From Thermodesulfobacteriota bacterium (GTDB lineage Bacteria > Desulfobacterota > Syntrophorhabdia > Syntrophorhabdales > JANXAF01): DNA of 64,000 nt. Made by a program: the position numbers and the translations under genes. The stretch spans positions 62,001 to 126,000 of the forward strand of contig JANXAF010000005.1 in NCBI GenBank assembly GCA_025062045.1, in the 5' to 3' direction. Under the pieces are notes generated by a model that worked only from the letters and a program-made list of their open reading frames with translations, made no database searches and was not told the origin of the DNA. The number at the start of each line of letters is the position of its first letter. Position 1 is the stretch's first letter. Positions 38,469 to 57,810 of this stretch are shown piece by piece.

Positions 38469-38853
38469 CTTTTTCCTTTTTGATTTGGCTATACATTTCC
38501 TGGACTTTTTCCACGAACCTCCTAGCCTCGGATGCACTTATCCAGAAAAGTTTTAACCTACCTTTCATCGAAAACGCATCCAACATCTCCTTTAAAGCAT
38601 AGATTCTTCTTCTCGTGTAATAGTTACCTTTTATGAAATGGCAGTCACCGGGATGGCATCCCGCAACAAAAACAGCATCAGCTCCTTCAAAGAGGGTTTT
38701 TATTATTAGGGCGGGATCCACCCTGCTCGAACACGGAACCTGTACGATCACCACTCCTTCAGGATATTTAAGCCTAAGACTACCGGCCATCTCTGATGCC
38801 TTATATGCGCAGTAAGAACAGGCAAATCCTACTATATTTATGCCACTTTCCAT
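38458..38853 (-). CDS. MvhD/FlpD-type [2Fe-2S] electron-transfer subunit
   Basis: The 131-residue protein has the complete MvhD cysteine pattern: GFACSYCAYKASEMAG, VPCSSRVDP and GADAVFVAGCHPGDCH. MvhD links hydrogenase, formate dehydrogenase or other input modules to HdrA. The ATG at 38853 has GGGAGG directly upstream, so a start four codons earlier is unlikely. It overlaps the upstream hdrA-like gene by 16 bases. Confidence 0.92.
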   Translation of the reverse strand: MESGINIVGFACSYCAYKASEMAGSLRLKYPEGVVIVQVPCSSRVDPALIIKTLFEGADAVFVAGCHPGDCHFIKGNYYTRRRIYALKEMLDAFSMKGRLKLFWISASEARRFVEKVQEMYSQIKKEKDEG

Positions 38854-41818: not shown

Positions 41819-41820
41819 GT

Positions 41821-42762
41821 TTACGACCCTTTTAGAATTTCAAGTAAACGGTCCCTTATTCTGTGCATGTCCCCAACTATTGCGTAGTGGGCATATTGAA
41901 ATATGGGGGCATCCGGATCCTTGTTCACCGCGATTATACATTCCGAATCCTTCATACCCTGTATGTGCTGGAAAGCACCAGAGATCCCCATGGCCAAATA
42001 GACTTTGGGCTTCACTGTCTTTCCAGATGTCCCGACCTGTCTTTCCTTTGGAAGCCAAAGCTTATCTATGACGGGTCTTGATGCGGAAAGGGTGGCTCGA
42101 AGACGTAAAGCCAGTTCTTCATATAGAGGAATCTCTTCCTTTTTACCCACTCCCCGTCCAATAGATATCAAAAAATCAGCTTTCGTAATATCCACTTCCT
42201 CTTTTTCTTCTTCCAGGTAGCCCAAAAATATCCTTTTGTCGGTATCGGCAAAACCATCTATTATCTCTTGGGAAGTCTCTTCGTATCTACTCTTTATATG
42301 GTCTTTGAAACTCCCACTTCTTAGAGTCAGAACGTAAAACTTCTCCTCTTTTAATTTTACGTGGGCGAATACTTTGTCTGAATAGTAACTTTTGAAGAAC
42401 ACTTTTGAGTCTTTGTCGTAGTCTGCCACATCTGTGACAATAGGGACCTTAAAGTAGCCTGCCACATAAGGGGCTATCTCCATACCAGAAGCCGATGCGG
42501 AAAGTACAATGGCAAAAGGTTCTTTGAATCTCTCTATAACCTTTTCCAATATGTGGACCATGATTAATGGGTTGAGAAACCGATCCTCATCCACATCTGC
42601 AATTAAGACTTTTTTGAAAAGGGAAGATTCGATCTCATATTCACCTTTTGGTAAAAGAAGGTAAGGATCTATTCCGGCCAGATTACAAAAACCGACTAAA
42701 TCTAAGTTCCTCTCCTGAAACACGTTTCTTCTTACATCGGCGATTAAAAGACCGTAACTCAT
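41821..42762 (-). CDS. etfA: Electron-transfer flavoprotein alpha subunit
   Basis: The 313-residue protein has the C-terminal FAD domain hallmark, with GTSGKTVKPKVYLAMGISG, IIAVNKDPDAPIF and the closing segment GDMHRI. EtfAB accepts electrons from acyl-CoA dehydrogenases. No N-terminal ferredoxin extension is present. It overlaps etfB by 4 bases and leads straight into hdrA, which suggests that the electron acceptor is the soluble Hdr assembly rather than a membrane ETF:quinone oxidoreductase. Confidence 0.94.
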   Translation of the reverse strand: MSYGLLIADVRRNVFQERNLDLVGFCNLAGIDPYLLLPKGEYEIESSLFKKVLIADVDEDRFLNPLIMVHILEKVIERFKEPFAIVLSASASGMEIAPYVAGYFKVPIVTDVADYDKDSKVFFKSYYSDKVFAHVKLKEEKFYVLTLRSGSFKDHIKSRYEETSQEIIDGFADTDKRIFLGYLEEEKEEVDITKADFLISIGRGVGKKEEIPLYEELALRLRATLSASRPVIDKLWLPKERQVGTSGKTVKPKVYLAMGISGAFQHIQGMKDSECIIAVNKDPDAPIFQYAHYAIVGDMHRIRDRLLEILKGS

Positions 42763-43538
42763 TGGTATACCCCCTTTTCGCGAAGAATGTTCAATATTTC
42801 ACGACAGGCAGTATCTATGTCGGATGACAAAAGGGTTGCTCCTTCTTTCCTCGGTGGGTAGCTCCATTTTATAACCTCAATAGTCGCGGAAAGCCCATCC
42901 ATGTACTGGTGTGCATCGTAAACCTTCCTCTGTATCTGGGATGCCTTCCTGATACCCATTATGGAAACGTAACGTGGTTCATTTATACCCGTTTGAATCG
43001 AAAGGACACAAGGAACATCCACTTTTACCCTCTCCATTAAGCCGCCTTCCAGCTCTCTCCTTACAACTGCGTAACTTCCGCTCCACTCTTCGATTCCACA
43101 GACTAGTGAAACGTAGGGGAGACTGAGTAGCGCTGCCAGATATCCACCGAAAACACCGTATTGATCGTCTTCGGCCTGAACTCCTGTGAGTATTACGTCG
43201 AATTTTATCTTTTCTTTTGTGAGAAAGTTGTAAGCCAAAGATGCTCTAATCACCGGATCCAAAAGAGTCTCAGGTTTTTCAAGAAGTAATCCATCTTTGG
43301 CCCCCATTGCCAAAGACCTTCTTAGTACTTCATCAGCCTCTTTGTCTCCTATAGTTATGGCTGTTACCTGGCCTCCCAGTTTTTCAACTGTTCTACACGC
43401 TTCTTCCAACGCGTAATTATCCCAGTCATTGATCTTGTACGGCAGTTTGGAAAGGTCTACCCGCTCCCCGTCTCCAACTATTCTTAGTTCCTCTTCTTGG
43501 GCTGCCTGGACCCTCTTTACGAAAACTAAGATGTTCAT
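42759..43538 (-). CDS. etfB: Electron-transfer flavoprotein beta subunit
   Basis: The 259-residue protein has the EtfB features MNILVFVKRV, the NDWDNYALEEA segment, TAITIGDKEADEVLRRSLAMGA and the nucleotide-binding TGVQAEDDQYGVFGG. It pairs with EtfA. Whether this ETF bifurcates cannot be told by eye; the loop differs from the usual GKQAIDGD motif. It overlaps both neighbours by 4 bases. Confidence 0.94.
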   Translation of the reverse strand: MNILVFVKRVQAAQEEELRIVGDGERVDLSKLPYKINDWDNYALEEACRTVEKLGGQVTAITIGDKEADEVLRRSLAMGAKDGLLLEKPETLLDPVIRASLAYNFLTKEKIKFDVILTGVQAEDDQYGVFGGYLAALLSLPYVSLVCGIEEWSGSYAVVRRELEGGLMERVKVDVPCVLSIQTGINEPRYVSIMGIRKASQIQRKVYDAHQYMDGLSATIEVIKWSYPPRKEGATLLSSDIDTACREILNILREKGVYQ

Positions 43539-44632
43539 TCCAAAACCTCCATTATGATCTCTGATATTTCCTTTACTTCTATGCCTTGTTCCACTGCCTC
43601 TTCCTCAAGAGTCATAAGGCAGAAAGGACAGGCAACCGCTATGATTTGAGCTCCCAGTTCCTTTGCTTCGGCAACTCTTATCTTTGCATTCCTTACGTAT
43701 GTGATATCGACTTCGTAGAACATCCTTCCTCCTCCTCCCTCACAGCAGAGGGAATTTTCCCTAGATCTTGTAAATTCCAAAAGTTCGAGACCATCAATCG
43801 ATCTCAAAATGTTTCGTGGTTCTTCAAAAATTCCATTCTGTTTACCTAGAAAACACGGATCGTGGTAAATAACTCTTTTTCTGTAGCTTCCTTTAAGCGT
43901 AAGAAGCCCTTGGACTATGGCAGACCACAATAGTTCGCTATAGTGGAATACCCTAAAACCTCTCCCATTGTACTCGTTCTTTATGGTGTTCATGCAATGG
44001 GGGGAAACTGCTATAACTTCCTTTATTCCGTACTTTTCGAAGTTAGAAACGTTTTCATCCCTTAGCTCTTCAAAGAGGCCCATCTCTCCTAGTCTTTTTA
44101 TCTCATTTCCACAGCACGCCTCTTCTTCTTTGAGCACTCCGAATTTTATGCCGCAGGAATTTAGAAGCTTAGCAACATTTGTAGGAATCACCATACATCT
44201 TGGATCGTAGGCATTAACGCAACAAGAAAAGAGGATTCTCGAATCCGGGATCTTGTGCCCGTGACTTATCTCAAGGCCAGATTTTTCAACCCATTCACCC
44301 CTTTTTGAGCGAGCCCGTCCGAAGGGATTCTTCTGTAAAAAAGTATTTTCAAGGGCCCTTTGAATGGAAGGAGATACTTCGCCAGACTCTACGAGTATGC
44401 TTCTAAGATGGAGCACTACTTCTTGTGGCTTCACATCCCTCGGACACCTGATGGTACATGAGCCACACGTCGTACAATACCACAGATCCGAGCCTGTGGA
44501 GGCTATTCCAAACTGATTTTTTCTCACAATCATTCTGACATTAAGGGGGGTCCTTCCCGATTCTGGACACCCTCCTGTGCATTTCCCACACTGGATACAA
44601 GCGTATATCCTTTGGTTCTCTAAAGCATCCAT
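43535..44632 (-). CDS. HdrD-like soluble iron-sulfur protein (two ferredoxin and two CCG modules)
   Basis: The 365-residue protein joins two [4Fe-4S] motifs (CIQCGKCTGGCPESGR, CTTCGSCTIRCPRDV) to two CCG modules (CCVNAYD/ACCGNE/SPHC and HDPCFLG/LCCEGGGG/ACPFC), the HdrC-HdrB fusion pattern of HdrD. It has no transmembrane helices, unlike the membrane ETF:menaquinone oxidoreductases that share CCG modules. As first gene before etfB it could be the direct partner of ETF. A sigma-54 promoter lies just upstream. Confidence 0.88.
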   Translation of the reverse strand: MDALENQRIYACIQCGKCTGGCPESGRTPLNVRMIVRKNQFGIASTGSDLWYCTTCGSCTIRCPRDVKPQEVVLHLRSILVESGEVSPSIQRALENTFLQKNPFGRARSKRGEWVEKSGLEISHGHKIPDSRILFSCCVNAYDPRCMVIPTNVAKLLNSCGIKFGVLKEEEACCGNEIKRLGEMGLFEELRDENVSNFEKYGIKEVIAVSPHCMNTIKNEYNGRGFRVFHYSELLWSAIVQGLLTLKGSYRKRVIYHDPCFLGKQNGIFEEPRNILRSIDGLELLEFTRSRENSLCCEGGGGRMFYEVDITYVRNAKIRVAEAKELGAQIIAVACPFCLMTLEEEAVEQGIEVKEISEIIMEVLE

Positions 44633-44780: not shown

Positions 44781-46124
44781 CTATGAAGGTTTGAGAAGGT
44801 TATAAAGTTTTTTTCGACTTATACCAAGGATCTTCGATGCTCTACTTTTGTTACCCTTTGTCAGTTCAAGAACCCTTTGGATATGCATTTTTTCTATCTC
44901 TTTTAGGTTCAGCTTATTATTATTTCCAAGCTCCGGGACGAAGATTTTCGATTGTCTAGAACTTAAAAGATTTATTGGCAGATCCTTTAGATCGATTTCT
45001 TCCCTCTCTCCCGCTACTAAAACGGCCCTCTCTAGTACGTTGAAGAGTTCCCTTACGTTGCCAGGCCAGTCGTAATTTATTAGGGCTTTTAGAGCATCAT
45101 TGGAGATTGACTTCACCTCACTTTTTTTTACGCGGAATTTCAAGAAGTAGTCAACGAGTAAAGGGATATCCTCTTTCCTTTGCCTAAGTGGCGGGATTTC
45201 AATAACAAAGGTACTTAGTCTAAAAAAAAGATCTTGTCTAAATCTGCCAGCTTCAATTTCTCTTTCTATGTTCTTATTCGTAGCAGATATAAAGCGGACA
45301 TCCACTGTTATCTCCCTTAAGTCTCCGAGTCTTCTGAAACTGCCTGTCTCTAAAACCCTAAGAAGTTTTGCCTGGATGGCATGGCTCATATCGGCTATCT
45401 CGTCTACGAAGAAAGTTCCAGAATCAGCTATCTGGATGAGCCCAAGCTTGTCTGAATTAGCTCCTGTAAATGCCCCTTTTTTGTACCCGAAAAGCTCACT
45501 TTCTAAGATGTTCTCCTGGAGACAACTCGCATTTACGACAACGAACGGATTTTCCGCCCGACGGGATTTCTCATGTATGGCTCTTGCCACAAGCTCCTTT
45601 CCGGTTCCGGTCTCTCCAAGTATTAAGACTGGTGCATCAGATTTAGAAACAAGCGAAATTGTCTCCTTAATCCTTTTCATCCCCTCGCTTTCCCCAACGA
45701 GGGTATCGCGAAATTTGAGTCTTGAGAGATGTTCTTCCAAAATCAAATTCTTTTCTGTCAATCTCTTCTTTTCATGGGCCTTTATTATGACATTTAGAAG
45801 TTCTGAGAGTTTGCATGGCTTTGTAAGATAATCGTATGCTCCAAGTTTCATGGATTTTACCGCCGTTTCAACCGATCCAAATCCAGTAAGGATTATGGCC
45901 TCCGATGTGGGCTGCAGAGATTTAAAGGTTTTTAAAAGTTCAATTCCGTCGATATCTGGCAACTTTATATCCAAAAGGGCAACATCCAGGCTCTCATTCT
46001 TCATGATGGATATGGCATCTTTTCCAGTCGTCGCGGTAAAGACCTGCATCCCTTCTTTTGATAACTTTTTTTTGTAAACGTCAACCAAAGACTTTTCGTC
46101 GTCAGCTATAAGAACCTTTATCAT
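44781..46124 (-). CDS. Sigma-54-dependent response regulator (NtrC family)
   Basis: The 447-residue protein has an N-terminal receiver with phosphoacceptor D52 (LLDIKLPDIDG), an AAA+ domain with GETGTGKELVARAIH, the sigma-54 contact loop GAFTGA, and a C-terminal Fis-type helix-turn-helix (KGNKSRASKILGISRKKLYNLL). It lies 4 bases after the histidine kinase gene, and its stop is next to the enhancer and sigma-54 promoter of the Hdr operon. It is the obvious candidate activator of both sigma-54 promoters in this region. Confidence 0.95.
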   Translation of the reverse strand: MIKVLIADDEKSLVDVYKKKLSKEGMQVFTATTGKDAISIMKNESLDVALLDIKLPDIDGIELLKTFKSLQPTSEAIILTGFGSVETAVKSMKLGAYDYLTKPCKLSELLNVIIKAHEKKRLTEKNLILEEHLSRLKFRDTLVGESEGMKRIKETISLVSKSDAPVLILGETGTGKELVARAIHEKSRRAENPFVVVNASCLQENILESELFGYKKGAFTGANSDKLGLIQIADSGTFFVDEIADMSHAIQAKLLRVLETGSFRRLGDLREITVDVRFISATNKNIEREIEAGRFRQDLFFRLSTFVIEIPPLRQRKEDIPLLVDYFLKFRVKKSEVKSISNDALKALINYDWPGNVRELFNVLERAVLVAGEREEIDLKDLPINLLSSRQSKIFVPELGNNNKLNLKEIEKMHIQRVLELTKGNKSRASKILGISRKKLYNLLKPS

Positions 46125-46128
46125 TTAT

Positions 46129-47592
46129 TTAGTCCTTTTTGGCAGCCGGAAAGATAACCTTGAAGCAGCTTCCCTTTCCAAGGGTGCTTCTTACCTCAAC
46201 CCGACCGCCCATCCGCTTTACGAATTCGTGGCAAAGAGTAAGCCCAAGCCCTATCCCCCGGCCATCATTCTTCGTGGAGAAAAAAGGCTCAAAAATTCTG
46301 TCTAACAGAGCCTCGTGAATTCCGACTCCGTTGTCCTCTATTTCTACTACTACGTGTCCGTCGTCACGATGGGCCTGAATCTTTATTATTCCTTTCTCTT
46401 TTGTCTCTACTGCGTCAAAGGCATTCTGGATAAGGTTCGAGAGGCACTGTTTTAAAGCGTTAAAATCCCCAAGGATTGGTGGCAGCTTTCTTTCCAATCG
46501 TACTCGTATCTCTACATTTGGCTGTTTTTGGCGGTAATCGGCCAGTACTTCCTTAATACATATGCCAACATCTATTTCCTTAAACTCAAAACTCTCTTTT
46601 TTTGTCAAATTAAGCATGTCCCTTATGATTCTTTTGCATCTGAAGGCTTCCTTCTGGATAACCTCCAGGCACTCGTAGATCTCGTCCATCTCTTTGTTCC
46701 TTCTCTTTTTCATTTCTTCGAAGAGTTCGCAGGCAAGTTCGGAGTTGGCACAGATTGTCGCAAGCGGATTATTGAGTTCGTGGGCAACTGCTGTCATAAG
46801 TCTTCCTATAACCGACATTTTTGCGTCTTGGATCGATTGTAACTTTGCCATAACTTTTTCAGTAGTCTCTTCTATGATACAGAGGAGACACTCCACGTTC
46901 CCATCTTTGTCCCTTATGGGAACGCCTCTAAAATGTAAAAACTGTCCCCTTGTCCCCTTGTAATTCGTAAACGGAAAGTCGTGAAGTTCAAAAGGCTCGC
47001 CTTCTAAACCCCTCTTTATGTAATCTGCAAGTCCGCACTCTATCGTATACTTGTTTTGAAGCCAGTTGAATTTTAACAATTTCTTTTCGGCTTCATCCCC
47101 GAGCCCCGATATGGCCGCAAGAGCTGGATTAACACTCATGAACTTTCCTGTCTTATCAATTGTAAAAATTGCAACAGGGGCGTTTTTTATAATAGCCGCA
47201 TTAAAATCACTGAGCTTTTTTAGTTCCTCTTCCGCTTTTTTCTGTTCCGTTACGTCCTGGATCATCTCTACATAGAGAAGACCATTCTTATCTCCTTCAT
47301 AATCTAACGGGAAAACGGAGATCTTCAAATATTTGCCAGAAGCGCGATCTTCAACTACGGACGTACGCACACTCCCTAAATCTTCAGACTCGCAAAGAGG
47401 ACAGAAATCGCACTTAAGATCTCTTCGGAATAGAACTTCGAAGCATTTTTTCTCTTTCCAATTTTTCCAATCTGACACACGTAAACTTTCCATAGTCTTA
47501 CTGTTCATCCAAATTAGCTCGTAATTACGATTAAAAACCAGGATCTCCATCGGTAAAGAGTTGACCAATTTCTCGAGGAAGGCAGCTAACAT
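46129..47592 (-). CDS. Soluble PAS-domain sensor histidine kinase
   Basis: The 487-residue kinase has two PAS domains (about 10-120 and 130-265), the phosphoacceptor H-box VAHELNNPLATI, an N-box (NLIQNAFDAV), a G1 box (DNGVGI) and a G2 box (GRGIGLGLTL). No transmembrane helix is seen, so it senses a cytoplasmic signal. The first PAS has a cysteine cluster, C50, C61, C64 and C67, that could bind metal or respond to redox. It is 12 bases after the acyl-CoA ligase gene and is co-transcribed with its regulator. Confidence 0.93.
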   Translation of the reverse strand: MLAAFLEKLVNSLPMEILVFNRNYELIWMNSKTMESLRVSDWKNWKEKKCFEVLFRRDLKCDFCPLCESEDLGSVRTSVVEDRASGKYLKISVFPLDYEGDKNGLLYVEMIQDVTEQKKAEEELKKLSDFNAAIIKNAPVAIFTIDKTGKFMSVNPALAAISGLGDEAEKKLLKFNWLQNKYTIECGLADYIKRGLEGEPFELHDFPFTNYKGTRGQFLHFRGVPIRDKDGNVECLLCIIEETTEKVMAKLQSIQDAKMSVIGRLMTAVAHELNNPLATICANSELACELFEEMKKRRNKEMDEIYECLEVIQKEAFRCKRIIRDMLNLTKKESFEFKEIDVGICIKEVLADYRQKQPNVEIRVRLERKLPPILGDFNALKQCLSNLIQNAFDAVETKEKGIIKIQAHRDDGHVVVEIEDNGVGIHEALLDRIFEPFFSTKNDGRGIGLGLTLCHEFVKRMGGRVEVRSTLGKGSCFKVIFPAAKKD

Positions 47593-47604
47593 AGCTAAGG
47601 CAAT

Positions 47605-49182
47605 CTATTTATAAGACTGCGGATCACAAGTGTCAACAGTTCTGCGCTTAATTATCTCCTTGATCTCCCTCCTTAGAATTTTTCCTTGAGGACTCTTTGG
47701 AAGTTCTTTCCAAAATTCAACTGATTTCGGTTTTTTGTAGCTTGCAAGATGCCTTCCACAAAACTCGATTATCTCTTCCTCTTTAGCCTCCATTCCTTCC
47801 TTTAGGACTACAATCGCTTTGACAATCTCGCCCCAGTGTTCGTCCGGCACGCCTACGACGGAAACTTCCGAGACTTTCGGGTGCATGTAGATCACTTCCT
47901 CCACTTCCCTCGGATAAATATTCACCCCACCTGATATGATCATGTCGTCTTTCCTTTCAATTATGTAGACGTAACCGTCCTCGTCAAACCTACCAAGATC
48001 ACCTGTGTACAACCAACCGTTCCTTAGTTTCTTTTTTGTTTCCTCCTCAAGTTTCCAGTAGCCTTTCATCACCGATTCGCTTTTAAGAATTATCTCGCCC
48101 ACTTCTCCGCAAGGCACATCTTTTCCTTCTTCGTCGACAATCCTTAGCTCGAAGTTGATTACCGGTTTCCCTGATGAGGCAAGCCTCTTTTGAGCCTTTT
48201 CGTCATCAAGTACATGGTCCTCTGGTTTAAGTACCGTTGTCAGGGGACCCGACTCTGTCTGACCGTAAAGCTGGGCAAACCCACATTTGAAAACTTTGAG
48301 TGCCCGACGGATGAGTTCAACTGGCATTGGAGCACCAGCGTAAAGGATCATCTTAAGACTGCTTAAGTCATATTTTTCAATTTCGGGTTCCTTAAGCAAC
48401 GTGTGTATCATAGTTGGGACGAACTGACACCTTGTGATCCTTTCCTGCTCTATGTAACTTAGTATCTCTTTCGCGTTGAACTTTCCCTCCCTTCGGATAT
48501 GCAAGGCGTTGGGCATGAATGTGTGCCGCACTATGTTGTCCTCGCCTGCCACGTGATATAGGGGAAATGTGATATAGACTCTCTCGTCATAGTCGACCTT
48601 AAGCTCTATCACTCCCGTTATGGCATTCATTATTATGTGCCTGTGAGTTCTTAGTGCTCCCTTCGGTCTGCCCGTTGTGCCAGCTGTGAAAATCATACTG
48701 CAGACATCGTCATCTTGGACAAGACGAGACGGTTCTTCGGTTTTCCCCTGGGACAGAATATCATCATATTTTATGGCGTAATCCGGGTGGGGACTGCCTA
48801 ACGAGATGTAATGTTCGACTACCTTTATCTCTTGCCTTATGTTATCGACGATCGGCCACATATCAGGATGAACAAAAAGAACCTTTGGTTCAGAATAATT
48901 GATGATGTAAGAGAGTTCCTTCTCTCTGAAGTGACTATTATATGGACAGAATATCGAACCGATTTTAGCAGAAGCAAAATAGATTTCCAAAAACTCTCCC
49001 GAGTTGTGTAAAAACAATCCTAACCTGTCTCCTTTTTTAACACCTATCTCCATCAAAGCCCACGCAAGACGGTTAACCCTTTCGTTATACTCCCTGTAGT
49101 TAAGCCTTTTACCCTCAAACACATAAGCAATTTTATCTGGAAACTTTCTCGCATTCCTTGCCAAAATTTCGCCAACAACCAT
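47605..49182 (-). CDS. AMP-forming acyl-CoA synthetase/ligase
   Basis: The 525-residue adenylating enzyme has the P-loop FTAGTTGRPKGALRTH, the motifs YGQTESGPLTT and YTGDLGRFDEDGYVYIIERKDD, and the C-terminal catalytic lysine region PKSPQGKILRREI. It activates a carboxylic acid to its CoA thioester, probably the acid brought in by the adjacent TRAP system. Chain length or ring type cannot be predicted. It lies 15 bases after the acyl-CoA dehydrogenase gene. Confidence 0.92.
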   Translation of the reverse strand: MVVGEILARNARKFPDKIAYVFEGKRLNYREYNERVNRLAWALMEIGVKKGDRLGLFLHNSGEFLEIYFASAKIGSIFCPYNSHFREKELSYIINYSEPKVLFVHPDMWPIVDNIRQEIKVVEHYISLGSPHPDYAIKYDDILSQGKTEEPSRLVQDDDVCSMIFTAGTTGRPKGALRTHRHIIMNAITGVIELKVDYDERVYITFPLYHVAGEDNIVRHTFMPNALHIRREGKFNAKEILSYIEQERITRCQFVPTMIHTLLKEPEIEKYDLSSLKMILYAGAPMPVELIRRALKVFKCGFAQLYGQTESGPLTTVLKPEDHVLDDEKAQKRLASSGKPVINFELRIVDEEGKDVPCGEVGEIILKSESVMKGYWKLEEETKKKLRNGWLYTGDLGRFDEDGYVYIIERKDDMIISGGVNIYPREVEEVIYMHPKVSEVSVVGVPDEHWGEIVKAIVVLKEGMEAKEEEIIEFCGRHLASYKKPKSVEFWKELPKSPQGKILRREIKEIIKRRTVDTCDPQSYK

Positions 49183-49197
49183 CTTTCCCTCCAGGTA

Positions 49198-50718
49198 TTA
49201 AAAAATGTTCTTCTTTTCGACCCAGAAAGGAAACCATCTGTAGTATTCAAAGTCGAAAGCTTCGTTCAATCCCTCGTACGTTGCCTTTGCCATCATTATC
49301 TGGTTTTTCTGTCTAAAAAGGGAAACAAGGCCTTTTCTCTCCAAGCTTTCGAGAACCGGAACGATCTTTTCTTTTTCGCATCCAAAATACTCGCATATAT
49401 CTTCCACCTTCATGTAGAGCCCAGGATTCACCCTGTAATCCTCAGCAAGCACCCTAAGAACATTAGACTCGTCTGGTTCTTCATCAGTAGATGTAAAGCC
49501 GACAACCGGCACCGGAACCCCTAAATCTTTATCTATCGCCCTCTTTTGGGGCTTGATATGCTCTTTAAGTTTCCTCATTGCAGATCTTAAGATAACAAGC
49601 CGACAGGCTTCCATAGTTCCACCAGCTATGTTCTCTACCTTGGAAACGTTCATTATGGAAAGAAGGGGATAAAATGGGGTAAGCCCATCCCCTCCCATAA
49701 CCTGAATACCATCAAGTGCTGAAGAAAGTACACTCTCACAGTTGTAAACTTTGGCCACGTTCGACTCGATCGTTATATCCCAACCAATATCCCAGAGATA
49801 GGCGGTGTAGTAAGTGAGTAACCTCGCTGTGTAGTATCTTATAAAGAGATCTGCGAGTTTGAGCTGATTATTAGTAAAATCTATAGTTGGTCTTCCGAAT
49901 TGAACTCTTCTTTCGGCATAGGGTATTACGTACCTAATAATCTCCCACATCCATCCCAAAACTTGGGCAGAAATCAGAGTCCTTTCAAAGTTGAGACCGT
50001 TTGTCATGACCTTCCATCCTTCCCCTTCCTCCCCTATCCTATTCTCTACCGGACAAGGTGTGTTATTGAAATTCAGAACGCCGTTCTGGATATTTTCGAA
50101 TCCCGCAATCTCGTTTATCTTTTCGACGTTGAAGCCAGCCATGCCCTTCTCCACGATAAATCCCGTAAGGTGGCGATAATTTGCGATATCTTGAGGATCA
50201 TCGCTTGTGCGTGCGTAAACCATATATCTCGTTGCCACACCCGCAGAGACTATGAACCTTTTCTTTCCATTTAAGATGTAAACATCTCCCACCTTTTTAG
50301 CCCTCACATGCTGGGCGGCCGCATCCGTTCCGGCGAAAGGTTCTGTAATTACTATGGCCCCTATTTCGCCCTTTGCTATCCTTGGAAGAAAACGCTTTTT
50401 TTGTTCCTCCGTTCCGAATTCGATTATCTGTCTTAACCCCCCAAGCATGTTGCCAACAAAGACTCTACCGGGTCCGGGCATAATATTTAAGGCCTCCGCC
50501 GCAATACAGGCACCGGTCGCTCCTAGCCCCATCCCTCCGTACTCTTTTGGTATTCCCGCTCCGGTATATCCCCTTTCACTTATTTTCTCGAATATTTCCC
50601 ACGGAAACTGCCTCTTCCACCTGCTTTTCACATCAATGGGTATAAGCTCACGAACAAAGGTCTGTACTTCTTCTGCGAATCTTTTTTGCTCATCAGTCCA
50701 CCAGGGATACGGAAACAT
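49198..50718 (-). CDS. Acyl-CoA dehydrogenase with C-terminal winged-helix-like extension
   Basis: Residues 1-390 form an acyl-CoA dehydrogenase: ITEPFAGTDAAA, FIVSAGVATRYMVYA, the RVQFGRPTID segment and GGDG. The usual C-terminal catalytic Glu (YEGT) is Gly here (G366 in IAGGT). E245 in GLNFERTLIS matches the isovaleryl-CoA dehydrogenase base, so an active IVD-type site is likely. Residues 418-485 add a winged-helix-like unit (YMKVEDICEYFGCEKEKIVP, LESLERKGLV), which is unusual for the family. It would feed electrons to EtfAB. It lies 15 bases after the molybdenum hydroxylase large-subunit gene. Confidence 0.9.
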   Translation of the reverse strand: MFPYPWWTDEQKRFAEEVQTFVRELIPIDVKSRWKRQFPWEIFEKISERGYTGAGIPKEYGGMGLGATGACIAAEALNIMPGPGRVFVGNMLGGLRQIIEFGTEEQKKRFLPRIAKGEIGAIVITEPFAGTDAAAQHVRAKKVGDVYILNGKKRFIVSAGVATRYMVYARTSDDPQDIANYRHLTGFIVEKGMAGFNVEKINEIAGFENIQNGVLNFNNTPCPVENRIGEEGEGWKVMTNGLNFERTLISAQVLGWMWEIIRYVIPYAERRVQFGRPTIDFTNNQLKLADLFIRYYTARLLTYYTAYLWDIGWDITIESNVAKVYNCESVLSSALDGIQVMGGDGLTPFYPLLSIMNVSKVENIAGGTMEACRLVILRSAMRKLKEHIKPQKRAIDKDLGVPVPVVGFTSTDEEPDESNVLRVLAEDYRVNPGLYMKVEDICEYFGCEKEKIVPVLESLERKGLVSLFRQKNQIMMAKATYEGLNEAFDFEYYRWFPFWVEKKNIF

Positions 50719-50733
50719 AAAAAAAACCTCCTC

Positions 50734-53028
50734 TCACTTTCTGTTTCTTAGTGCGAGAGCTATCTTTTCTGGTGTCACTGGCAATTCCGTAAACCATATT
50801 CCAGTTGCATCGTGGATGGCGCTTACAATTGAAGGAGGAGTACTCACTATTGCCCCTTCTGAAGCTTCTTTAGCTCCGTATGGTACGTTTGGGTCTTCTG
50901 TGAGTACGTGTATCACTTCGATCTTTGGCACATCTTTAATTCCAGGAATCTTGTAATCCGCAAAGTTTGGATTAAGTGTTCTCCCCTTATCCATCTTAAA
51001 CTCTTCGTATAGCGCCTGACCTAAGCCCTGAACTGCCGCACCCTGGTTTTGAGATTCTACGAGGGCCGGATTAAGAGGTTTTCCACAGTCGTGAGCAATT
51101 ATCATGTCGGTACACTTTACAAAGCCAGTCTCTGAGTCAACCTCAACCCTAGACAGCTGTGCAGTAAAACTGTACGCTGTGCCCGCATTTCCTATTCCCT
51201 TTTCGAAATCTAATGGTTCGATCCCATATTCGGAATACCCTTTTCCGATTAAAACCCTTCCAGAGCCTGAATAACAGGCTATCTGAGCCAATTTCCTAAA
51301 TGGCAGTGACTTCAGAGGCTGGTCCTTTACAGAAACCGTTCCATTCTTAAAGACGATCTCATCCGGAGTCACATTCCACTCTTTCGCCGCAATCTCTGCG
51401 AGCTGTCGCTTTAGATCTCTTGCCGCTTTCATGGCGGCTTCTCCTGCAAGGGCCGTAACTCTACTTCCGTACGTACCGGGATCTATGGGAGTATAAGCAG
51501 TATCTACCCGCTTTATATCTATATGTTCAATGGGAAGGCCTAGCTCCTCAGCAATGATTTGGACAAGAACGGTGTCGGAACCTTGACCTGCATCTGTTGC
51601 TCCTGTTAGGTACTCCACCGTCCCATCTTCGCAGAGCCTAAGAATCGCACCTGCCGATTGGTGGCCCCTTTGGCGTGCCCCTCCTAGGTAGGCTGTACCA
51701 GAAACTCCAACCCCGCACAGTATGTGATTTTTTCTCTTTTCCTTTTCTTTTTCCTTCCAGAGAGATGACTCCTTGAGTCTCATCAATCCCTCTTTTAGGC
51801 CGCAAGAATGAACGGTTATCTTATTTACCGTCTCATAAGGTGCCTCGATTGCATTTTTAAGCCTTACTTCTATAGGGTCTAGGCCTAATTCTTCTGCCAT
51901 CATCTCCATCTGTATCTCGGCCGCAAAGCGGGTGTGGGTTACTCCATGACCTCTCATGGCTGCCGAAACCGGGTTATTCGTAAATACTCTGTAAGCATCG
52001 TGTCTGAAATTGGGAAGCTTATATGGAAGCGTGCTCAGACATCCTGTAAGGTACATTGTGAGGGGGCCTATTGCGGTGTAGGCTCCTCCGTCAGCTATCA
52101 CTTTTGACTGCATGGCTACTATGGTTCCATCTTTTTTCATGCCCATCTTGTTGTATATGACGCAGTTGTGCCTTCTTCTCGAGGTTACCATAACTTCTTC
52201 CATGCTATATACGAATTTTACTGGCTTTCCGGTCATTTTCGAGAGCATCACCACGCAAAAGTCGCCGGCGACAGAGTCGTTTTTCGTTCCTCCAAATCCT
52301 CCTCCAACGAAGGGTTGTATGACCCGAACCTTACTGAGTGGCAGCTTGAAACACTGAGCTATATGCCTGTAAAGGAAATAAGGGCTCTGCTTTGCAGCAT
52401 AGATAGTCACCCCTCCACCTTCCCAGTATGCGACTGCCGACGGAGGTTCTAAAAACCCTTGAATCACCCTCGCTGTGACGAATCTATCCTCCCTCACAAG
52501 ATCAGCTTCTCTAAACGCCCGATCCACATCCCCAAAGTCCATGTGAAACTCCCAGCTTATATTGTTAGGCCTGTAATCGTGGATTACCGGGGCTCCCTCC
52601 TTTAAGGCCTCTTCTGCATCGAAGACAGCGGGAAGCTCCTCATAGTCAACTTTTATTTGTTCTAAAGCCTCTTCTGCTGTATCCTCATCGATCGCTGCTA
52701 CCGCCGCAACCCCCTCCCCGTAATATCTGACCTTGTCTTCTGCCAAAGGTGGCTCATCCCTTGTGGCGGGCATCCATCCCCATCTGAAACCGCCGAAATC
52801 TTTTGCCGTACAGATGGCCTTAACCCCTATCACCCTTTTTGCCTTGGAAACATCGATATTTAAGATCTTCGCATGGGGGAGAGGACTTCTCAAAATCTTA
52901 CACCAAAGCATACCAGCTAGCTCAATGTCGGCCGCGTATTTGGCAGCCCCTGTCACTTTTTCTCTTCCGTCGACTCTTGGAATACTCTTGCCCAAAAGAT
53001 CGTAATCTCCGATAATTATGGTCTCCAT
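50734..53028 (-). CDS. Xanthine-dehydrogenase-family molybdenum hydroxylase, large subunit
   Basis: The 764-residue subunit binds molybdopterin. Motifs are the N-terminal GKSIPRVDGREKVTGAAKYA, QPFVGGGFGGTKNDS, AAMRGHGVTHTRFA at the Mo site, and GAKEASEGA with the expected catalytic Glu. The AMRGHG loop is of xanthine dehydrogenase/hydroxylase type and lacks the AYRCSFR loop of aerobic CO dehydrogenase. Such enzymes hydroxylate or dehydroxylate aromatic or N-heterocyclic carbons. The substrate is unknown; the linked CoA ligase suggests an organic acid. It is followed after 15 bases by the dehydrogenase gene. Confidence 0.92.
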   Translation of the reverse strand: METIIIGDYDLLGKSIPRVDGREKVTGAAKYAADIELAGMLWCKILRSPLPHAKILNIDVSKAKRVIGVKAICTAKDFGGFRWGWMPATRDEPPLAEDKVRYYGEGVAAVAAIDEDTAEEALEQIKVDYEELPAVFDAEEALKEGAPVIHDYRPNNISWEFHMDFGDVDRAFREADLVREDRFVTARVIQGFLEPPSAVAYWEGGGVTIYAAKQSPYFLYRHIAQCFKLPLSKVRVIQPFVGGGFGGTKNDSVAGDFCVVMLSKMTGKPVKFVYSMEEVMVTSRRRHNCVIYNKMGMKKDGTIVAMQSKVIADGGAYTAIGPLTMYLTGCLSTLPYKLPNFRHDAYRVFTNNPVSAAMRGHGVTHTRFAAEIQMEMMAEELGLDPIEVRLKNAIEAPYETVNKITVHSCGLKEGLMRLKESSLWKEKEKEKRKNHILCGVGVSGTAYLGGARQRGHQSAGAILRLCEDGTVEYLTGATDAGQGSDTVLVQIIAEELGLPIEHIDIKRVDTAYTPIDPGTYGSRVTALAGEAAMKAARDLKRQLAEIAAKEWNVTPDEIVFKNGTVSVKDQPLKSLPFRKLAQIACYSGSGRVLIGKGYSEYGIEPLDFEKGIGNAGTAYSFTAQLSRVEVDSETGFVKCTDMIIAHDCGKPLNPALVESQNQGAAVQGLGQALYEEFKMDKGRTLNPNFADYKIPGIKDVPKIEVIHVLTEDPNVPYGAKEASEGAIVSTPPSIVSAIHDATGIWFTELPVTPEKIALALRNRK

Positions 53029-53031
53029 CTA

Positions 53032-53511
53032 TCATTTGCCTCCTTTAAGCCAAGATGATGCCTTTTTAACTGCCTCTATTATCTTTGTGTAGCCAGTGCA
53101 TCTACATAAGTTTCCGGAAAGGGCCTCCTTTATATCGTCCTCGCTGGGATTTTCATTCCTTTTTAGTAAAGCGTATGAAGAGATGACCATACCGGGAGTA
53201 CAGAAACCACATTGTAGAGCGTTTTCGTTAAGGAAGGCCTCTTGAATAGGGTGGAGCTTTCCATCTTGAGCAAGGCCTTCTATCGTCACTACTTCTTTTC
53301 CGTCTATCTCGGGCGCAAGAACGAGACAGCTATTTACAGGAACCCCATCCAGTAAGACCGTACATGCGCCACAGTCTCCTATACCACATCCCTCTTTTGT
53401 ACCCGAAAGTTTAAGATCTTCCCGGATCATCTCTAAAAGGGTCCTATTCGGGGCTACGTATAGAACCGTTTCTTCTCCGTTTATTTTGAAACTAACTTTT
53501 AGCTTTTCCAT
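53032..53511 (-). CDS. Molybdenum hydroxylase [2Fe-2S] subunit
   Basis: The 159-residue protein has both [2Fe-2S] motifs: plant-type GCGIGDCGACTVLLDG and the alpha-helical CGFCTPGM...GNLCRCTGY. It passes electrons from the Mo centre to the FAD subunit. It lies between the FAD subunit and Mo subunit genes, with 1-3 base gaps. Order and length are typical of the family. Confidence 0.95.
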   Translation of the reverse strand: MEKLKVSFKINGEETVLYVAPNRTLLEMIREDLKLSGTKEGCGIGDCGACTVLLDGVPVNSCLVLAPEIDGKEVVTIEGLAQDGKLHPIQEAFLNENALQCGFCTPGMVISSYALLKRNENPSEDDIKEALSGNLCRCTGYTKIIEAVKKASSWLKGGK

Positions 53512-53512
53512 T

Positions 53513-54385
53513 CTAGACCTCCAAAAGCTTCTTAAGTGACCTTTTAAGTAGCGTTTCCACCATGAGTCTTCTATATTCTTTTGACGCCCTGTGGTCGTCT
53601 ATCGGAGAAGCTTCCTCGGATGCCACTTTTGAAGCCTCATCTATGGAAGCTTCTGTTATTCTCCCATCCTTTAGTATAGCTTCTGCTTTCTTTGCCCGGA
53701 TTGGTGTCGGAGAGACAGCGCCGAGACCTATCCGTACATCGCAAATTTTGCCATTTTCTTTAAGAACGAGAGTCGCCACACCAACTATAGCAAGATCCAT
53801 CCTTTCCCTTACAGAAAGCTTTGTATAAAGACCGGAAGATTCTAAGGAAATCAAAGGAATTTCTATTTCCCTTAGTATCTCGTCCTCTTCAATGACAGTC
53901 TTATTCGGACCTACAAAAAACTCTTCTATCTTCACTTTTCTTTCGCCTTTTTTGCCTTTTAGCGTCAAACTCGCTTCAAGGACGAGTAAAGCCGGAGCTG
54001 TATCTGCCGATGGAACCGCGTTACATATGTTTCCCGCCAAAGTTGCTCTATTCTGGATCTGGAATGCTCCTACGCTTTTTGAAGCTTGTGCGAGGACGGG
54101 AAAGTGTTTAATTACATCTGGCGATGAGTATATGGATCTCATTGTACATGTGGGTCCTATTCGAAGAAAACCATCAGAGACCTCAACGTAGTTAAAGTAC
54201 GGAATACCCTTGAGATCTACAATTGCATCGGGAGAAGGTATCAACCTTCTTTTCAGTTTGGGAATGAGATCCGTTCCACCGGCAAAGACGTAAGTTTTTT
54301 TCTCGCTCGAGATCATATTGAAGAGTTCTTCTTCTGATCTCGGTTTTAGATACCTGAACTTGGGTAGTCTCCTATAGAATATCAC
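53513..54385 (-). CDS. Molybdenum hydroxylase FAD subunit
   Basis: The 290-residue protein has the FAD motifs FAGGTDLIPKLK and TLAGNICNAVPSADTAPALLVL and the C-terminal CO-dehydrogenase-type flavin domain. It lacks the extra cysteine loop that carries a [4Fe-4S] cluster in 4-hydroxybenzoyl-CoA reductase, which argues against that specific enzyme. It is 12 bases after the MoaD-like gene. Confidence 0.92.
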   Translation of the reverse strand: MIFYRRLPKFRYLKPRSEEELFNMISSEKKTYVFAGGTDLIPKLKRRLIPSPDAIVDLKGIPYFNYVEVSDGFLRIGPTCTMRSIYSSPDVIKHFPVLAQASKSVGAFQIQNRATLAGNICNAVPSADTAPALLVLEASLTLKGKKGERKVKIEEFFVGPNKTVIEEDEILREIEIPLISLESSGLYTKLSVRERMDLAIVGVATLVLKENGKICDVRIGLGAVSPTPIRAKKAEAILKDGRITEASIDEASKVASEEASPIDDHRASKEYRRLMVETLLKRSLKKLLEV

Positions 54386-54397
54386 CCCTACCTCCTT

Positions 54398-54658
54398 TTA
54401 TCCCCCTCCAAGTGGAGTGAGGTATATTTCGAGTATGTCTCCATCTTTTAGTTCTTCATCGAGCTTTTTAGAATAAAAATTTATGTCCCTCCCATTTAGG
54501 AGAATTTCTACTAAAGGATCGAGTTCCTCTGTGGGTACCTCAATATTCATGTCTTTCATCAAACTGACAAAGACCTCTCTTACTCGTAATGTCCCCTCCA
54601 CCTTTAGGTTTTCATTTGATTTCCCAAAGTTAGTCAAAAGCTTTATCGTTTTTTGCAA
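54398..54658 (-). CDS. MoaD/ThiS-type small ubiquitin-like sulfur carrier
   Basis: The 86-residue beta-grasp protein ends in GGG, the tail that is thiocarboxylated and donates sulfur in molybdopterin or tungstopterin synthesis. Its position as the first full-size gene before the molybdenum hydroxylase genes suggests that it makes cofactor for this enzyme. A ThiS role or another sulfur-transfer role cannot be excluded. Confidence 0.78.
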   Translation of the reverse strand: MQKTIKLLTNFGKSNENLKVEGTLRVREVFVSLMKDMNIEVPTEELDPLVEILLNGRDINFYSKKLDEELKDGDILEIYLTPLGGG

Positions 54659-54678
54659 ATCTACCTTCCTCGGTCTCT

Positions 54679-54807
54679 CTATATGGTTTTTGTGAGAAAG
54701 TCAAAAGGTTCGGCGAATTTTTCGGTTCCACTCGTCTTTTTTTCGTTACTATTGGCATCTTCAGTCTGGATCCGATACTTGTCTTTTTCTGTAGAGCCCT
54801 CCTCCAT
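54679..54807 (-). CDS. Small ORF, 42 residues, strongly charged
   Basis: ATG at 54807 is preceded by AAAGGGAGGG at good spacing and the frame stays open to TAG at 54679-54681. It lies 20 bases before the MoaD-like gene on the same strand. The peptide is rich in Glu, Lys, Thr and Ser with no cysteine and no membrane segment, and ends near FAEPFDFLTKTI. I do not recognise it. It could be a real small protein or a translated leader of the molybdenum hydroxylase operon. Confidence 0.5.
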   Translation of the reverse strand: MEEGSTEKDKYRIQTEDANSNEKKTSGTEKFAEPFDFLTKTI

Positions 54808-54850
54808 CAGCTGACCCTCCCTTTCCTACTTTTACGCTTTTGGAAGCCTA

Positions 54851-54856
54851 ATAATA
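54851..54856 (-). promoter_or_regulatory. Possible -10 element for the molybdenum hydroxylase operon
   Basis: TATTAT on the minus strand lies 44 bases before the small ORF. No convincing -35 is seen, and no GG-N10-GC sigma-54 signature occurs in 54659-54900, so this operon may instead be read through from dctPQM. Confidence 0.25.
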
Positions 54857-54900
54857 GAGCGCCCACAGATATGTGTCCCTTGAACTTGGGCATGACTAGT

Positions 54901-56214
54901 CTAGTATTTCATAAGGCCAGGCAAAAATAGCGCTATTTCCGGCAAGAGAAAAACTACAGTTATTCCGATAATATCACAGATAATGAGGAATATTGCACCC
55001 TTGTAAATGTCTTTAATGGTCGTACCTTTCGGAGCTACACCCTGCATCACAAATAGTGTTAGTCCAAAAGGAGGGCTCTTCATAGCGATGCCCATGTTAA
55101 GAAGGGTAACGAGACAGAACCAGAGGGTATTTATATCCATCATTTTGAGAATCGGCATGAAGATGGGTAGAGTGATCATTAAAATCGACACTTGTTCCAT
55201 AAAGCAGCCAAGTACAAGGTAGACAATCTGCATGATAATAACCGTCACAACTGGAGAGATCGCGTATTCCATCACAAACTGGCACAGTCCCTGAGATGCA
55301 CCCGTATACGCGAGAATCTGTCCGAATGCGATTGCGCCAGTAAGTATCATGAACATCATAACAGTTATCCGAATGGTCGCAATAAGGGAATCTTTTATGA
55401 TTTTAATGCTTAGTCTTCCGTACAAAGCAATGAGGACAACCGATCCGAATATTCCCAAAATGGCTGATTCGCTTGGTGTGCAGAGTCCAAAAAATATAAG
55501 CCAAGTGACAAGAAACATAATCCCGCCAAAGGGGAGGATGTATTTGACGACACTCGCGATCTTTTCCTTCCACGGATAAACCTGTTCAGAGTAATCAAGC
55601 GCACTTTCTGGATCTAGTCTTGTAACAAGCGTAACATACGCTATGTAACATCCGGAAAGAACAAGCCCGGGCAGTATTCCTGAGATGAGAAGCTTCCCTA
55701 TAGATACTTCAGCAAGGGCACCAAGTATTACAGCGAAGGCACTTGGCGGAATGATCATCGCAAGTGCCCCGGAAAAACAAGAACTTATGGCCAGGTACCT
55801 TTTGTATCCTCGCCTGTACATTTCAGGAAGTAGAATGCTTCCTATCATTGCGGTAGTTCCCTGAGCAGATCCGCTTAACGCAGCAAAGATCGTAGCAGAA
55901 CCTATAGCAAGGTAACAGAGCCTCCCTCTTACCCTTCCCACCCACTTGTCCAGTGTTTCAATGACATACTGAAACACGCCAGATCGGGCTATCAGCTCTC
56001 CCATAAGTATGAAGGCAGGAACAGGAATTAAAACGAAGTTGGCAACCGATGAAAACACGGTATTTGACAGCTCGATAAGTCCCTTTAATCCACCCCAGAG
56101 AAAATAGATCCCAACGATGTTTACTATGGTGAAGGCAAGAAAAACTGGGAAGCCAGCAATAAGTAGAAAAATCAGGCTTCCCAGTATCAAAAAGAGGCTT
56201 ACGTACCACTCCAT
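54901..56214 (-). CDS. dctM: TRAP transporter large membrane subunit (DctM)
   Basis: The 437-residue protein has about 12 hydrophobic segments and the DctM family features: PVFLAFTIVNIVGIYF, GSAQGTTAMIGSILLPEM, IPPSAFAVILGALAEVSIGK and the C-terminal MKSPPFGLTLFVMQGVAPKG. It forms the Na+-coupled channel of a TRAP importer for an organic acid. It starts 1 base after dctQ. Confidence 0.94.
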   Translation of the reverse strand: MEWYVSLFLILGSLIFLLIAGFPVFLAFTIVNIVGIYFLWGGLKGLIELSNTVFSSVANFVLIPVPAFILMGELIARSGVFQYVIETLDKWVGRVRGRLCYLAIGSATIFAALSGSAQGTTAMIGSILLPEMYRRGYKRYLAISSCFSGALAMIIPPSAFAVILGALAEVSIGKLLISGILPGLVLSGCYIAYVTLVTRLDPESALDYSEQVYPWKEKIASVVKYILPFGGIMFLVTWLIFFGLCTPSESAILGIFGSVVLIALYGRLSIKIIKDSLIATIRITVMMFMILTGAIAFGQILAYTGASQGLCQFVMEYAISPVVTVIIMQIVYLVLGCFMEQVSILMITLPIFMPILKMMDINTLWFCLVTLLNMGIAMKSPPFGLTLFVMQGVAPKGTTIKDIYKGAIFLIICDIIGITVVFLLPEIALFLPGLMKY

Positions 56215-56215
56215 C

Positions 56216-56713
56216 TTAAGCTCTTCCTTTCTGGCTCCAACTCTCCCTAAGCTGCCTCAAGAACTCGACTGCAAGGGTAAAAAATCCGTACGCCATAATG
56301 AGGAAGAAGTAGTGTTTCCCAATTGCATAGATCTTGACAACTTTAAGCCCATCCCTGTATGCATGTACCGCGGCAAGAAAACTCGTTAAAGCAAGGATCC
56401 CCATTGCCAAAAACCCAACTAAGCTGTGGATCGTTCTAACATATGGCAGTTTTTCTCTGGATAGCACGTAATCAAGCACATCCACCCTTATATGTCCACC
56501 CTCCCTGAGAAGCCATCCCGTACCGAAGAAAGTGACGGAAAATAGGATGTATTCGATAAATTCCACATCCCACGTCAGAGGCCTATCAAAAAAGTACCTA
56601 AGTATGATCTCACAAAATTTGGTAACAACACAGATCGCCATAAGAACACAGCAGAAAAATGCAGATGCCTCAATAACCAAATCAAAGAACGTTTTCTTTT
56701 TTAGTCCTGCCAT
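56216..56713 (-). CDS. dctQ: TRAP transporter small membrane subunit (DctQ)
   Basis: The 165-residue protein has four transmembrane segments with the DctQ pattern (EIILRYFFDRPLTWDVEFIEYIL, residues about 33-55, and GTGWLLREGGHIRVDVL). It pairs with DctM. Its start overlaps dctP by 13 bases. Confidence 0.9.
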   Translation of the reverse strand: MAGLKKKTFFDLVIEASAFFCCVLMAICVVTKFCEIILRYFFDRPLTWDVEFIEYILFSVTFFGTGWLLREGGHIRVDVLDYVLSREKLPYVRTIHSLVGFLAMGILALTSFLAAVHAYRDGLKVVKIYAIGKHYFFLIMAYGFFTLAVEFLRQLRESWSQKGRA

Positions 56714-57708
56714 GGAAAAGCACCCTTAGGAAGTGCCGCTTTTGAGGTGAGTTTCCTAAGTTTAGGACCGTAATCAGGAGCGCTCTTTAGGACCGCCTCC
56801 CAAGTTTTTTCATAGACTAAATTTACAAATTTTTCTGCTTCTGGCTTTGGCATCTCAACAAACTCCATACCTGCCCTAAGTCGCTGTTTATCCTCCTTCT
56901 CCATTATCATCATCTGGCGCATTGTCGCTATGTATTCCATATCTTTCATGGTTTCGGAAATTACTTTCTGTGCATCTGCTGGCAGTTTCTTCCAAACGTC
57001 GAGGTTTATCATGGTCGCCGGTTCCATTTGGAACACACCGGGTAATATCATGTATTTAGTAACTTCCTGCAGGCCCCAGCTTGTCATTCCCACCCGTGGC
57101 CACATAAAACCGTCAACTACTTTCCTTTCCATCGCAGTGTGGATCTCAGTAGGCGGTATCATAACCGGAGAAGCACCGAGGGCCTGGATAAAGGGTACGT
57201 AAAGAGGCATAACCCTTATCTTCATGCCTTTAAAGTCCTCAAGCTTTGTTATTTTTTTATTGGTGTACATCATAAAAGGAATGAGGCTATGAAACCTTCC
57301 AAGGTATTTAGCGTTAACCCGCTTTTCAAAGATCTCTTCCCAGAGTTTAAAAGCACCCGTTACCCTTTCTTCCCACTCCGCAAGCTCTGTGAGTCCTTTC
57401 GCCTCCGCTTCTGGCATAAGCGGCTTCATGTACCCGAAAGGATAGTAAAGGATCATGTCTATCGTTCCTTTCTTCAAAGCACTTATCTGATCAAACGCCG
57501 CTATTACTTCGGGTCCGCCAAGCCATTTTATTTCCACCTTCCCCTTCAGTCTCTCATTTACCTTGTCGATAAACATCTGGACACCGTCGTTATTCGCATG
57601 TGGCTTAGGAAAAGCGCTTACGGCTTTTATCGTTATCTGCTGCGCGTTCGAAGATAACGCAAAAAGTGTAAATCCGACTACCAATGCGAAAATCAAGAAC
57701 TTTTTCAT
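56701..57708 (-). CDS. dctP: TRAP transporter substrate-binding protein (DctP)
   Basis: The 335-residue periplasmic protein has a signal peptide (MKKFLIFALVVGFTLFALSS..AQQ). The ATG at 57708, preceded by GGGGGGTG, is therefore preferred over a frame reaching 57780. The fold features SALKKGTIDMILYYPFG, FKGMKIRVM (with the conserved Arg that binds carboxylate) and EVTKYMILPG are typical. It is the first gene of the operon and has a sigma-54 promoter and upstream enhancer. The ligand is an unknown carboxylate. Confidence 0.93.
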   Translation of the reverse strand: MKKFLIFALVVGFTLFALSSNAQQITIKAVSAFPKPHANNDGVQMFIDKVNERLKGKVEIKWLGGPEVIAAFDQISALKKGTIDMILYYPFGYMKPLMPEAEAKGLTELAEWEERVTGAFKLWEEIFEKRVNAKYLGRFHSLIPFMMYTNKKITKLEDFKGMKIRVMPLYVPFIQALGASPVMIPPTEIHTAMERKVVDGFMWPRVGMTSWGLQEVTKYMILPGVFQMEPATMINLDVWKKLPADAQKVISETMKDMEYIATMRQMMIMEKEDKQRLRAGMEFVEMPKPEAEKFVNLVYEKTWEAVLKSAPDYGPKLRKLTSKAALPKGAFPWQD

Positions 57709-57744
57709 TTGACACCCCCCAGAAGGATTTTTCTGAAGTTGAAA

Positions 57745-57760
57745 AGCAATTTTTATGCCT
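57745..57760 (-). promoter_or_regulatory. Sigma-54 (-24/-12) promoter of the dctPQM operon
   Basis: On the minus strand AGGCATAAAAATTGCT has GG and GC separated by 10 bases and a perfect TTGCT -12 half. The -24 half differs from TGGCAC at two positions. The dctP ATG is 37 bases downstream. Confidence 0.7.
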
Positions 57761-57810
57761 TTTATGCCGTTTTCATGCATCTCCTCCTACCAGTTGGAAA
57801 AAAAAAGACG

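Follow-up and report, generated by a model that had tools for sequence, protein, structure and literature searches.

Gene neighborhood of the dehydrogenase

The window, that is, the whole 64,000-nucleotide stretch of a contig from an anaerobic Thermodesulfobacteriota bacterium that was analyzed, carries on its minus strand a 506-amino-acid open reading frame for an acyl-CoA dehydrogenase, an enzyme of fat and acid oxidation, with a C-terminal tail (49198..50718). The gene lies in a compact minus-strand operon. Downstream of it, after a 15-bp gap, is a gene for an AMP-dependent acyl-CoA ligase (47605..49182), recognized by its Pfam AMP-binding domain and with homologues nearby in several relatives. 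The ligase gene is followed by those for a PAS histidine kinase and an NtrC-type sigma-54 response regulator (44781..47592), the operon's own regulators, which were assigned with Pfam and have homologues in four relatives. On the other side of the dehydrogenase is the molybdenum subunit of a xanthine-dehydrogenase-family enzyme (50734..53028), which stands beside the dehydrogenase in 10 loci, and then the 2Fe-2S subunit (53032-53511) and FAD subunit (53513-54385) of the same molybdoenzyme (together 53032..54385). The nearest NCBIfam model of the molybdenum subunit is the 4-hydroxybenzoyl-CoA reductase alpha subunit. Identification as this reductase was rejected, as the cut-offs are reached neither by the alpha subunit (740 bits, with 994 required) nor by the FAD subunit (138 bits, with 405 required), the latter missing by a wide margin, and the literature search found no paper on a 4-hydroxybenzoyl-CoA reductase/TRAP operon.

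Genes for the TRAP transporter components DctM, DctQ, and DctP (54901..57780, minus strand) lie further upstream and recur in relatives; DctM and DctP match their NCBIfam models, and DctQ is named by size, position, and conserved context only. Gaps of 1-15 bp separate the genes for the molybdoenzyme subunits, dehydrogenase, ligase, PAS kinase, and NtrC regulator, with the TRAP genes upstream and EtfBA/Hdr-like genes downstream. The molybdoenzyme and TRAP genes recur next to the dehydrogenase in bacterial relatives, and the operon of TRAP transporter, three-subunit molybdenum hydroxylase, dehydrogenase, and CoA ligase (44781-57780 in the window) recurs in the window's order. Its likely role is the uptake, activation, and oxidation of an organic acid. 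The genes for EtfB (42759-43538), EtfA (41821-42762), and an HdrD-like iron-sulfur/CCG protein (43535-44632), all on the minus strand (41821..44632) and identified with Pfam and NCBIfam, encode a candidate electron acceptor of the dehydrogenase. A large EtfBA/HdrA-like/CCG iron-sulfur cluster occupies positions 34624-44632 just downstream of the operon and is a candidate electron route. Elsewhere in the window (29883-32212), a gene for a UbiD-family decarboxylase overlaps one for a UbiA prenyltransferase.

A complete catalytic core

The catalytic core (residues 1-384; 49567..50718, minus strand) was delimited by Pfam, PDB alignments, a fold search, and clade-specific residues. The N-terminal, middle, and C-terminal acyl-CoA dehydrogenase domains of Pfam span residues 8-118, 121-219, and 232-380 (E = 4.5e-26, 1.1e-16, and 5.2e-28), which places the protein in this family with a core that is complete to about residue 384. 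Since the Pfam core ends at residue 380, about 120 residues are left over, bearing out the preliminary description, which had seen the protein extend past a complete dehydrogenase. Matches to the five other acyl-CoA dehydrogenases of the same genome end at query residues 384-391, without the tail, and the nearest PDB chains align to the core only.

The catalytic base is at one of the two known positions, that of isovaleryl-CoA dehydrogenase (IVD) and LCAD. It is Glu245, which does not vary among the 61 fused and 7 split relatives (see below) and whose counterpart in isovaleryl-CoA dehydrogenase 4o5m is the glutamate of GLDYER. The usual glutamate position is occupied by Gly366, and by Ala or Gly in most relatives. 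A base of the Glu245 type with replacement of the usual glutamate is the LCAD/IVD arrangement (PMC11153573). Trp6, Trp7, Arg154, His183, and Asn212 are further residues that mark the clade. No NCBIfam equivalog, such as acryloyl-CoA reductase or cyclohexanecarboxyl-CoA dehydrogenase, was reached, the best scores being 217-218 bits where 640 is required.

A winged helix in the C-terminal tail

The tail begins with a linker (residues 385-416; 49471..49566, minus strand), which is variable except for R393, L399, and P402 according to column entropies over 61 relatives. It continues with a winged-helix domain (residues 417-488; 49255..49470, minus strand) that contains the would-be recognition helix, helix 3 (residues 449-461, KEKIVPVLESLER; 49336..49374, minus strand), and ends in an aromatic C-terminal arm (residues 489-506, P.E.YYRWFP.W......F; 49201..49254, minus strand) that is conserved among the 61 sequences. 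The segment first singled out, 49198-49460, corresponds to roughly residues 420-506 plus the stop codon.

A helix-helix-helix-wing pattern had been proposed for this region, and structure prediction with a fold search confirmed it as a winged-helix fold. AlphaFold2 modeling of a 22-sequence tail alignment gave a mean pLDDT of 80.6, with block means of 84-96 for about residues 411-490, which is all of the modeled tail except its two ends. Helices and strands were predicted at H27-40, H48-55, H59-71, E75-80, E83-89, and H91-97 in tail numbering, or protein residues 417-430, 438-445, 449-461, 465-470, 473-479, and 481-487. The topology, H-E-H-H-E-E-H with high confidence, follows the H1-S1-H2-H3-S2-wing-S3 order of winged helices, and the AlphaFold2 model of the whole protein agrees with that of the tail alone. 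Foldseek matches of the tail in the PDB are overwhelmingly winged-helix regulators with MarR-type proteins first (ranks 1-9 at E<1e-3 and probability 1.00), and 2obp matches with a TM score of 0.80 by target length. At the sequence level, the tail alone has only sub-threshold Pfam matches, to TrmB (E=4e-4, 20.6 bits against 25.6) and HTH_27 (E=2e-3, 19.0 against 22.2). The best PDB sequence match of the tail profile is the winged helix of CdvB (2xvc), which is weak (E=1e-3).

Distribution of the fused form

A search of other genomes for the same fusion yielded 61 distinct full-length fused proteins of 505-582 amino acids from the window's phylum, Asgard archaea, Halobacteriota, and one Chloroflexota genome. 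One of these, from a Candidatus Helarchaeota MAG, is 44% identical to the window protein over residues 4-506. Because 61 distinct relatives end with the same tail, an origin of the tail by chance or as an open reading frame artefact is ruled out. When searched with the tail only, it is present in 14 of 46 genomes of the window's order, 10 of 395 of the window's phylum (one of them a weak non-dehydrogenase match), and 39 of 148 Asgard genomes (three with the stand-alone form only); strong matches were found in four of 197 Halobacteriota, and there was a single one in 201 Chloroflexota. Weak non-dehydrogenase tail matches in the window's phylum, Halobacteriota, and Chloroflexota (E 1e-3 to 1e-5) were taken as generic winged helices.

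To test the association of the tail with the enzyme without bias, we used a core-only profile as the query. The scores are separated by a sharp gap, with clade members at 502 bits or more and other dehydrogenases at 369 bits or less. Each of the 17 clade members in the window's order (580-636 bits) has a frame of at least 506 amino acids, and the 21 other dehydrogenases there (322 bits or less) have frames of 387-407 amino acids. In 99 Asgard genomes there are 47 matches above 500 bits, the next being 369. They comprise 42 fused proteins, 4 split pairs, and 1 protein truncated where its contig ends. The last of these (G459, contig 151) was rejected as a module-less clade member, since the contig ends inside the linker. 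The module, fused or adjacent, is therefore found in 46 of 46 testable Asgard clade members and in 17 of 17 of the window's order, and is obligate in every testable member of the clade. Three Asgard genomes (G459, G467, and G486) have 5-8 core-profile matches each and up to nine tail matches, with no single common operon.

The preliminary description would have been contradicted if the tail were a common feature of a known dehydrogenase subgroup. It is a fixed feature of a subgroup, but there is no sign that the subgroup is a known one. We found the fusion described neither in Pfam, NCBIfam, or PDB chains nor in the literature searched, which left most subscription journals outside its range.

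A split form in Asgard archaea

A homologue of the tail occurs as a stand-alone gene of about 100 amino acids in eight Asgard loci, seven of them intact and the eighth at a contig end. All seven intact genes are directly upstream of a tail-less dehydrogenase of 411-424 amino acids, at most 12 bp away or overlapping it. The pairs are located at L148:2096-3642, L149:1209-2767, L150:8975-10523, L151:4299-5831, L152:3780-5349 (minus strand), L154:8006-9565 (minus strand), and L155:9414-10961, and their neighbors encode enoyl-CoA hydratases, an SCP-2 protein, and CoA ligases. Alignment of the stand-alone and tail profiles gave an hhalign probability of 98.7 (E 2.7e-16). The stand-alone profile also matched DARPins; no stretch of these matches passes alone, and they were treated as chance.

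In a midpoint-rooted tree of 97 sampled cores (61 fused, 7 split, and 29 others), the fused proteins fall on one side of a branch (support 100/99) as sister to the split ones (100/100) and apart from the 29 others. This tree and the core-only searches rule out a recent one-off fusion. The window's bacterial fused group nests inside archaeal diversity, which suggests, within the limits of the midpoint root and the sampled rows, that the fused dehydrogenase was transferred from archaea to bacteria. The stand-alone gene is upstream of the dehydrogenase and the fused domain is C-terminal, so simple read-through of a stop codon does not explain the fusion. What is kept seems to be the pairing of module and dehydrogenase itself. 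The winged-helix module, fused or split, is a real working part, apparently undescribed, of the enzymes in one clade of a known family.

Protein docking or DNA binding

Conservation in the tail is uneven. Column entropies over the 61 sequences are lowest in the loop at residues 431-437 (0.76 bits, compared with 1.47 bits for the core), and few elements vary more than the N-terminal half of helix 3 (2.34 bits). P432, E460, P497, and W499 are invariant, and the arm residues Y493 and F506 are conserved in 97% and 82% of the sequences after weighting. The conserved surfaces are the helix-1 loop, the wing strand, and the C-terminal arm. The net charge of the exposed helix 3 positions averages -1.82 in the 61 tails versus +1.18 in 22 MarR proteins from genomes related to the window's (p=3e-7), and is lower still in the bacterial clade (-2.6). 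For the whole tail the mean is -2.3, against +6.4 in the MarR proteins. The wing is basic (mean +2.1), and individual archaeal recognition helices, for example SRSTIRKIIES, are neutral or basic, the acidic character being a statistical trend.

The acidic, variable helix 3, together with the CdvB match, favors docking or assembly. Of the functions offered in the preliminary description, protein docking fits best, and we think it somewhat more probable than not that the tail is a winged-helix accessory module of one clade that serves protein docking or assembly rather than DNA binding. The module would pack on the dehydrogenase core, its own or that of a neighboring subunit, or hold a partner protein, with contacts through the helix-1 end and N-P-G-L loop, the third strand, and the aromatic arm, and its recognition helix would not read DNA. 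The dehydrogenase itself most likely oxidizes the acyl-CoA made by the adjacent ligase, with Glu245 as the predicted base, and the acid substrate of the ligase would be imported by the TRAP transporter.

A more specific form of docking, in which the module binds the electron acceptor (ETF or an Hdr-type complex) and steers electrons to a dedicated partner, appears unlikely. It is consistent with the EtfBA and Hdr-like genes that lie 148 bp beyond the operon in the window's genome, with FAD/CCG redox genes behind the operon in two relatives, and with the clade-specific Trp6-Trp7 just before helix A, a stretch near the ETF docking region on MCAD. However, the neighborhoods of the dehydrogenase in the other bacterial loci examined, and in most archaeal loci, yielded no ETF-type genes, and ETF also serves dehydrogenases that have no tail of this kind. 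We attach a similarly low probability to a function within the enzyme, where the module would cap the CoA-binding face or replace oligomer contacts as in VLCAD/ACAD9, with no external partner. The position of the module after the last core helix, the strong conservation of the arm, and the fact that a separate subunit can substitute would agree with this, but the extension is a winged helix, unlike that of VLCAD, and among the best 50 PDB matches of the full model the alignments cover the core only (392 columns or fewer).

It is distinctly improbable that the tail is a DNA-binding domain that makes the enzyme a moonlighting regulator of its own operon through flavin redox state or acyl-CoA occupancy, for which PutA and BirA are models. 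The fold matches are DNA-binding MarR regulators, the wing is basic, and the tail matches, of which a single Asgard genome can have up to nine, differ in their recognition helices. Adaptation of the dehydrogenase fold to DNA binding has a precedent in AidB, whose positively charged C-terminal domain makes the contact (PMC3546729). The window-clade tail does not share that positive charge, and the TrmB and HTH_27 models score it below their gathering thresholds. Most of the operons already have an ordinary regulator, namely a TetR gene in six bacterial loci, the kinase/NtrC pair in others, and an ArsR-type gene upstream in opposite orientation in six split Asgard loci, and the archaeal fused genes have no one common operon. 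The transcriptional feedback by DNA binding suggested at the outset is accordingly disfavored on sequence grounds, and no more than disfavored, because of the basic wing and the neutral or basic archaeal helices. Paralogous regulators with different operators would likewise be expected to vary in helix 3. Slightly less probable still is a DNA-reading flavoenzyme throughout the clade, spread over archaea and bacteria and duplicated in Asgard archaea, that would sense acyl-CoA or redox state and control transcription itself; the split Asgard pair would then represent the ancestral couple of regulator and enzyme.

Comparison with known systems

Although few flavoenzymes are as well studied as the acyl-CoA dehydrogenases, a clade with an accessory winged-helix subunit, common to bacteria of the window's order, Asgard archaea, and Halobacteriota, seems to be undescribed. 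In anaerobic acid degradation, the module may turn out to provide electrons or substrates with a docking route of their own. Since it exists both fused and separate, its role is directly testable by co-expression and deletion.

With the IVD/LCAD-type dehydrogenases, of which human IVD is about 30% identical to the 506-amino-acid protein, the clade shares the three-domain core, the glutamate base on helix G (E245), and Gly or Ala at the usual glutamate position, whereas the winged-helix module and the clade-specific residues W6, W7, R154, H183, and N212 set it apart. VLCAD and ACAD9 likewise have an extra C-terminal domain after the core, but their chains match the window dehydrogenase over the core only, and their extension is helical and unrelated to the winged-helix tail. 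AidB of Escherichia coli, also related to the acyl-CoA dehydrogenases, has a C-terminal region with a function of its own; its DNA-binding domain there is positive, whereas the tail of the window clade is a winged helix that is net acidic on average. The winged helix of CdvB binds a CdvA peptide, which is a protein-docking use of the fold (PMC5840170). CdvB and the tail are both winged helices, but the match is weak, the protein context is different, and homology is not established. MarR regulators share the fold as well, and the tail differs from them in its acidic, variable recognition helix and in being always tied to a dehydrogenase, a caution that the fold alone is insufficient for calling winged-helix domains regulators.
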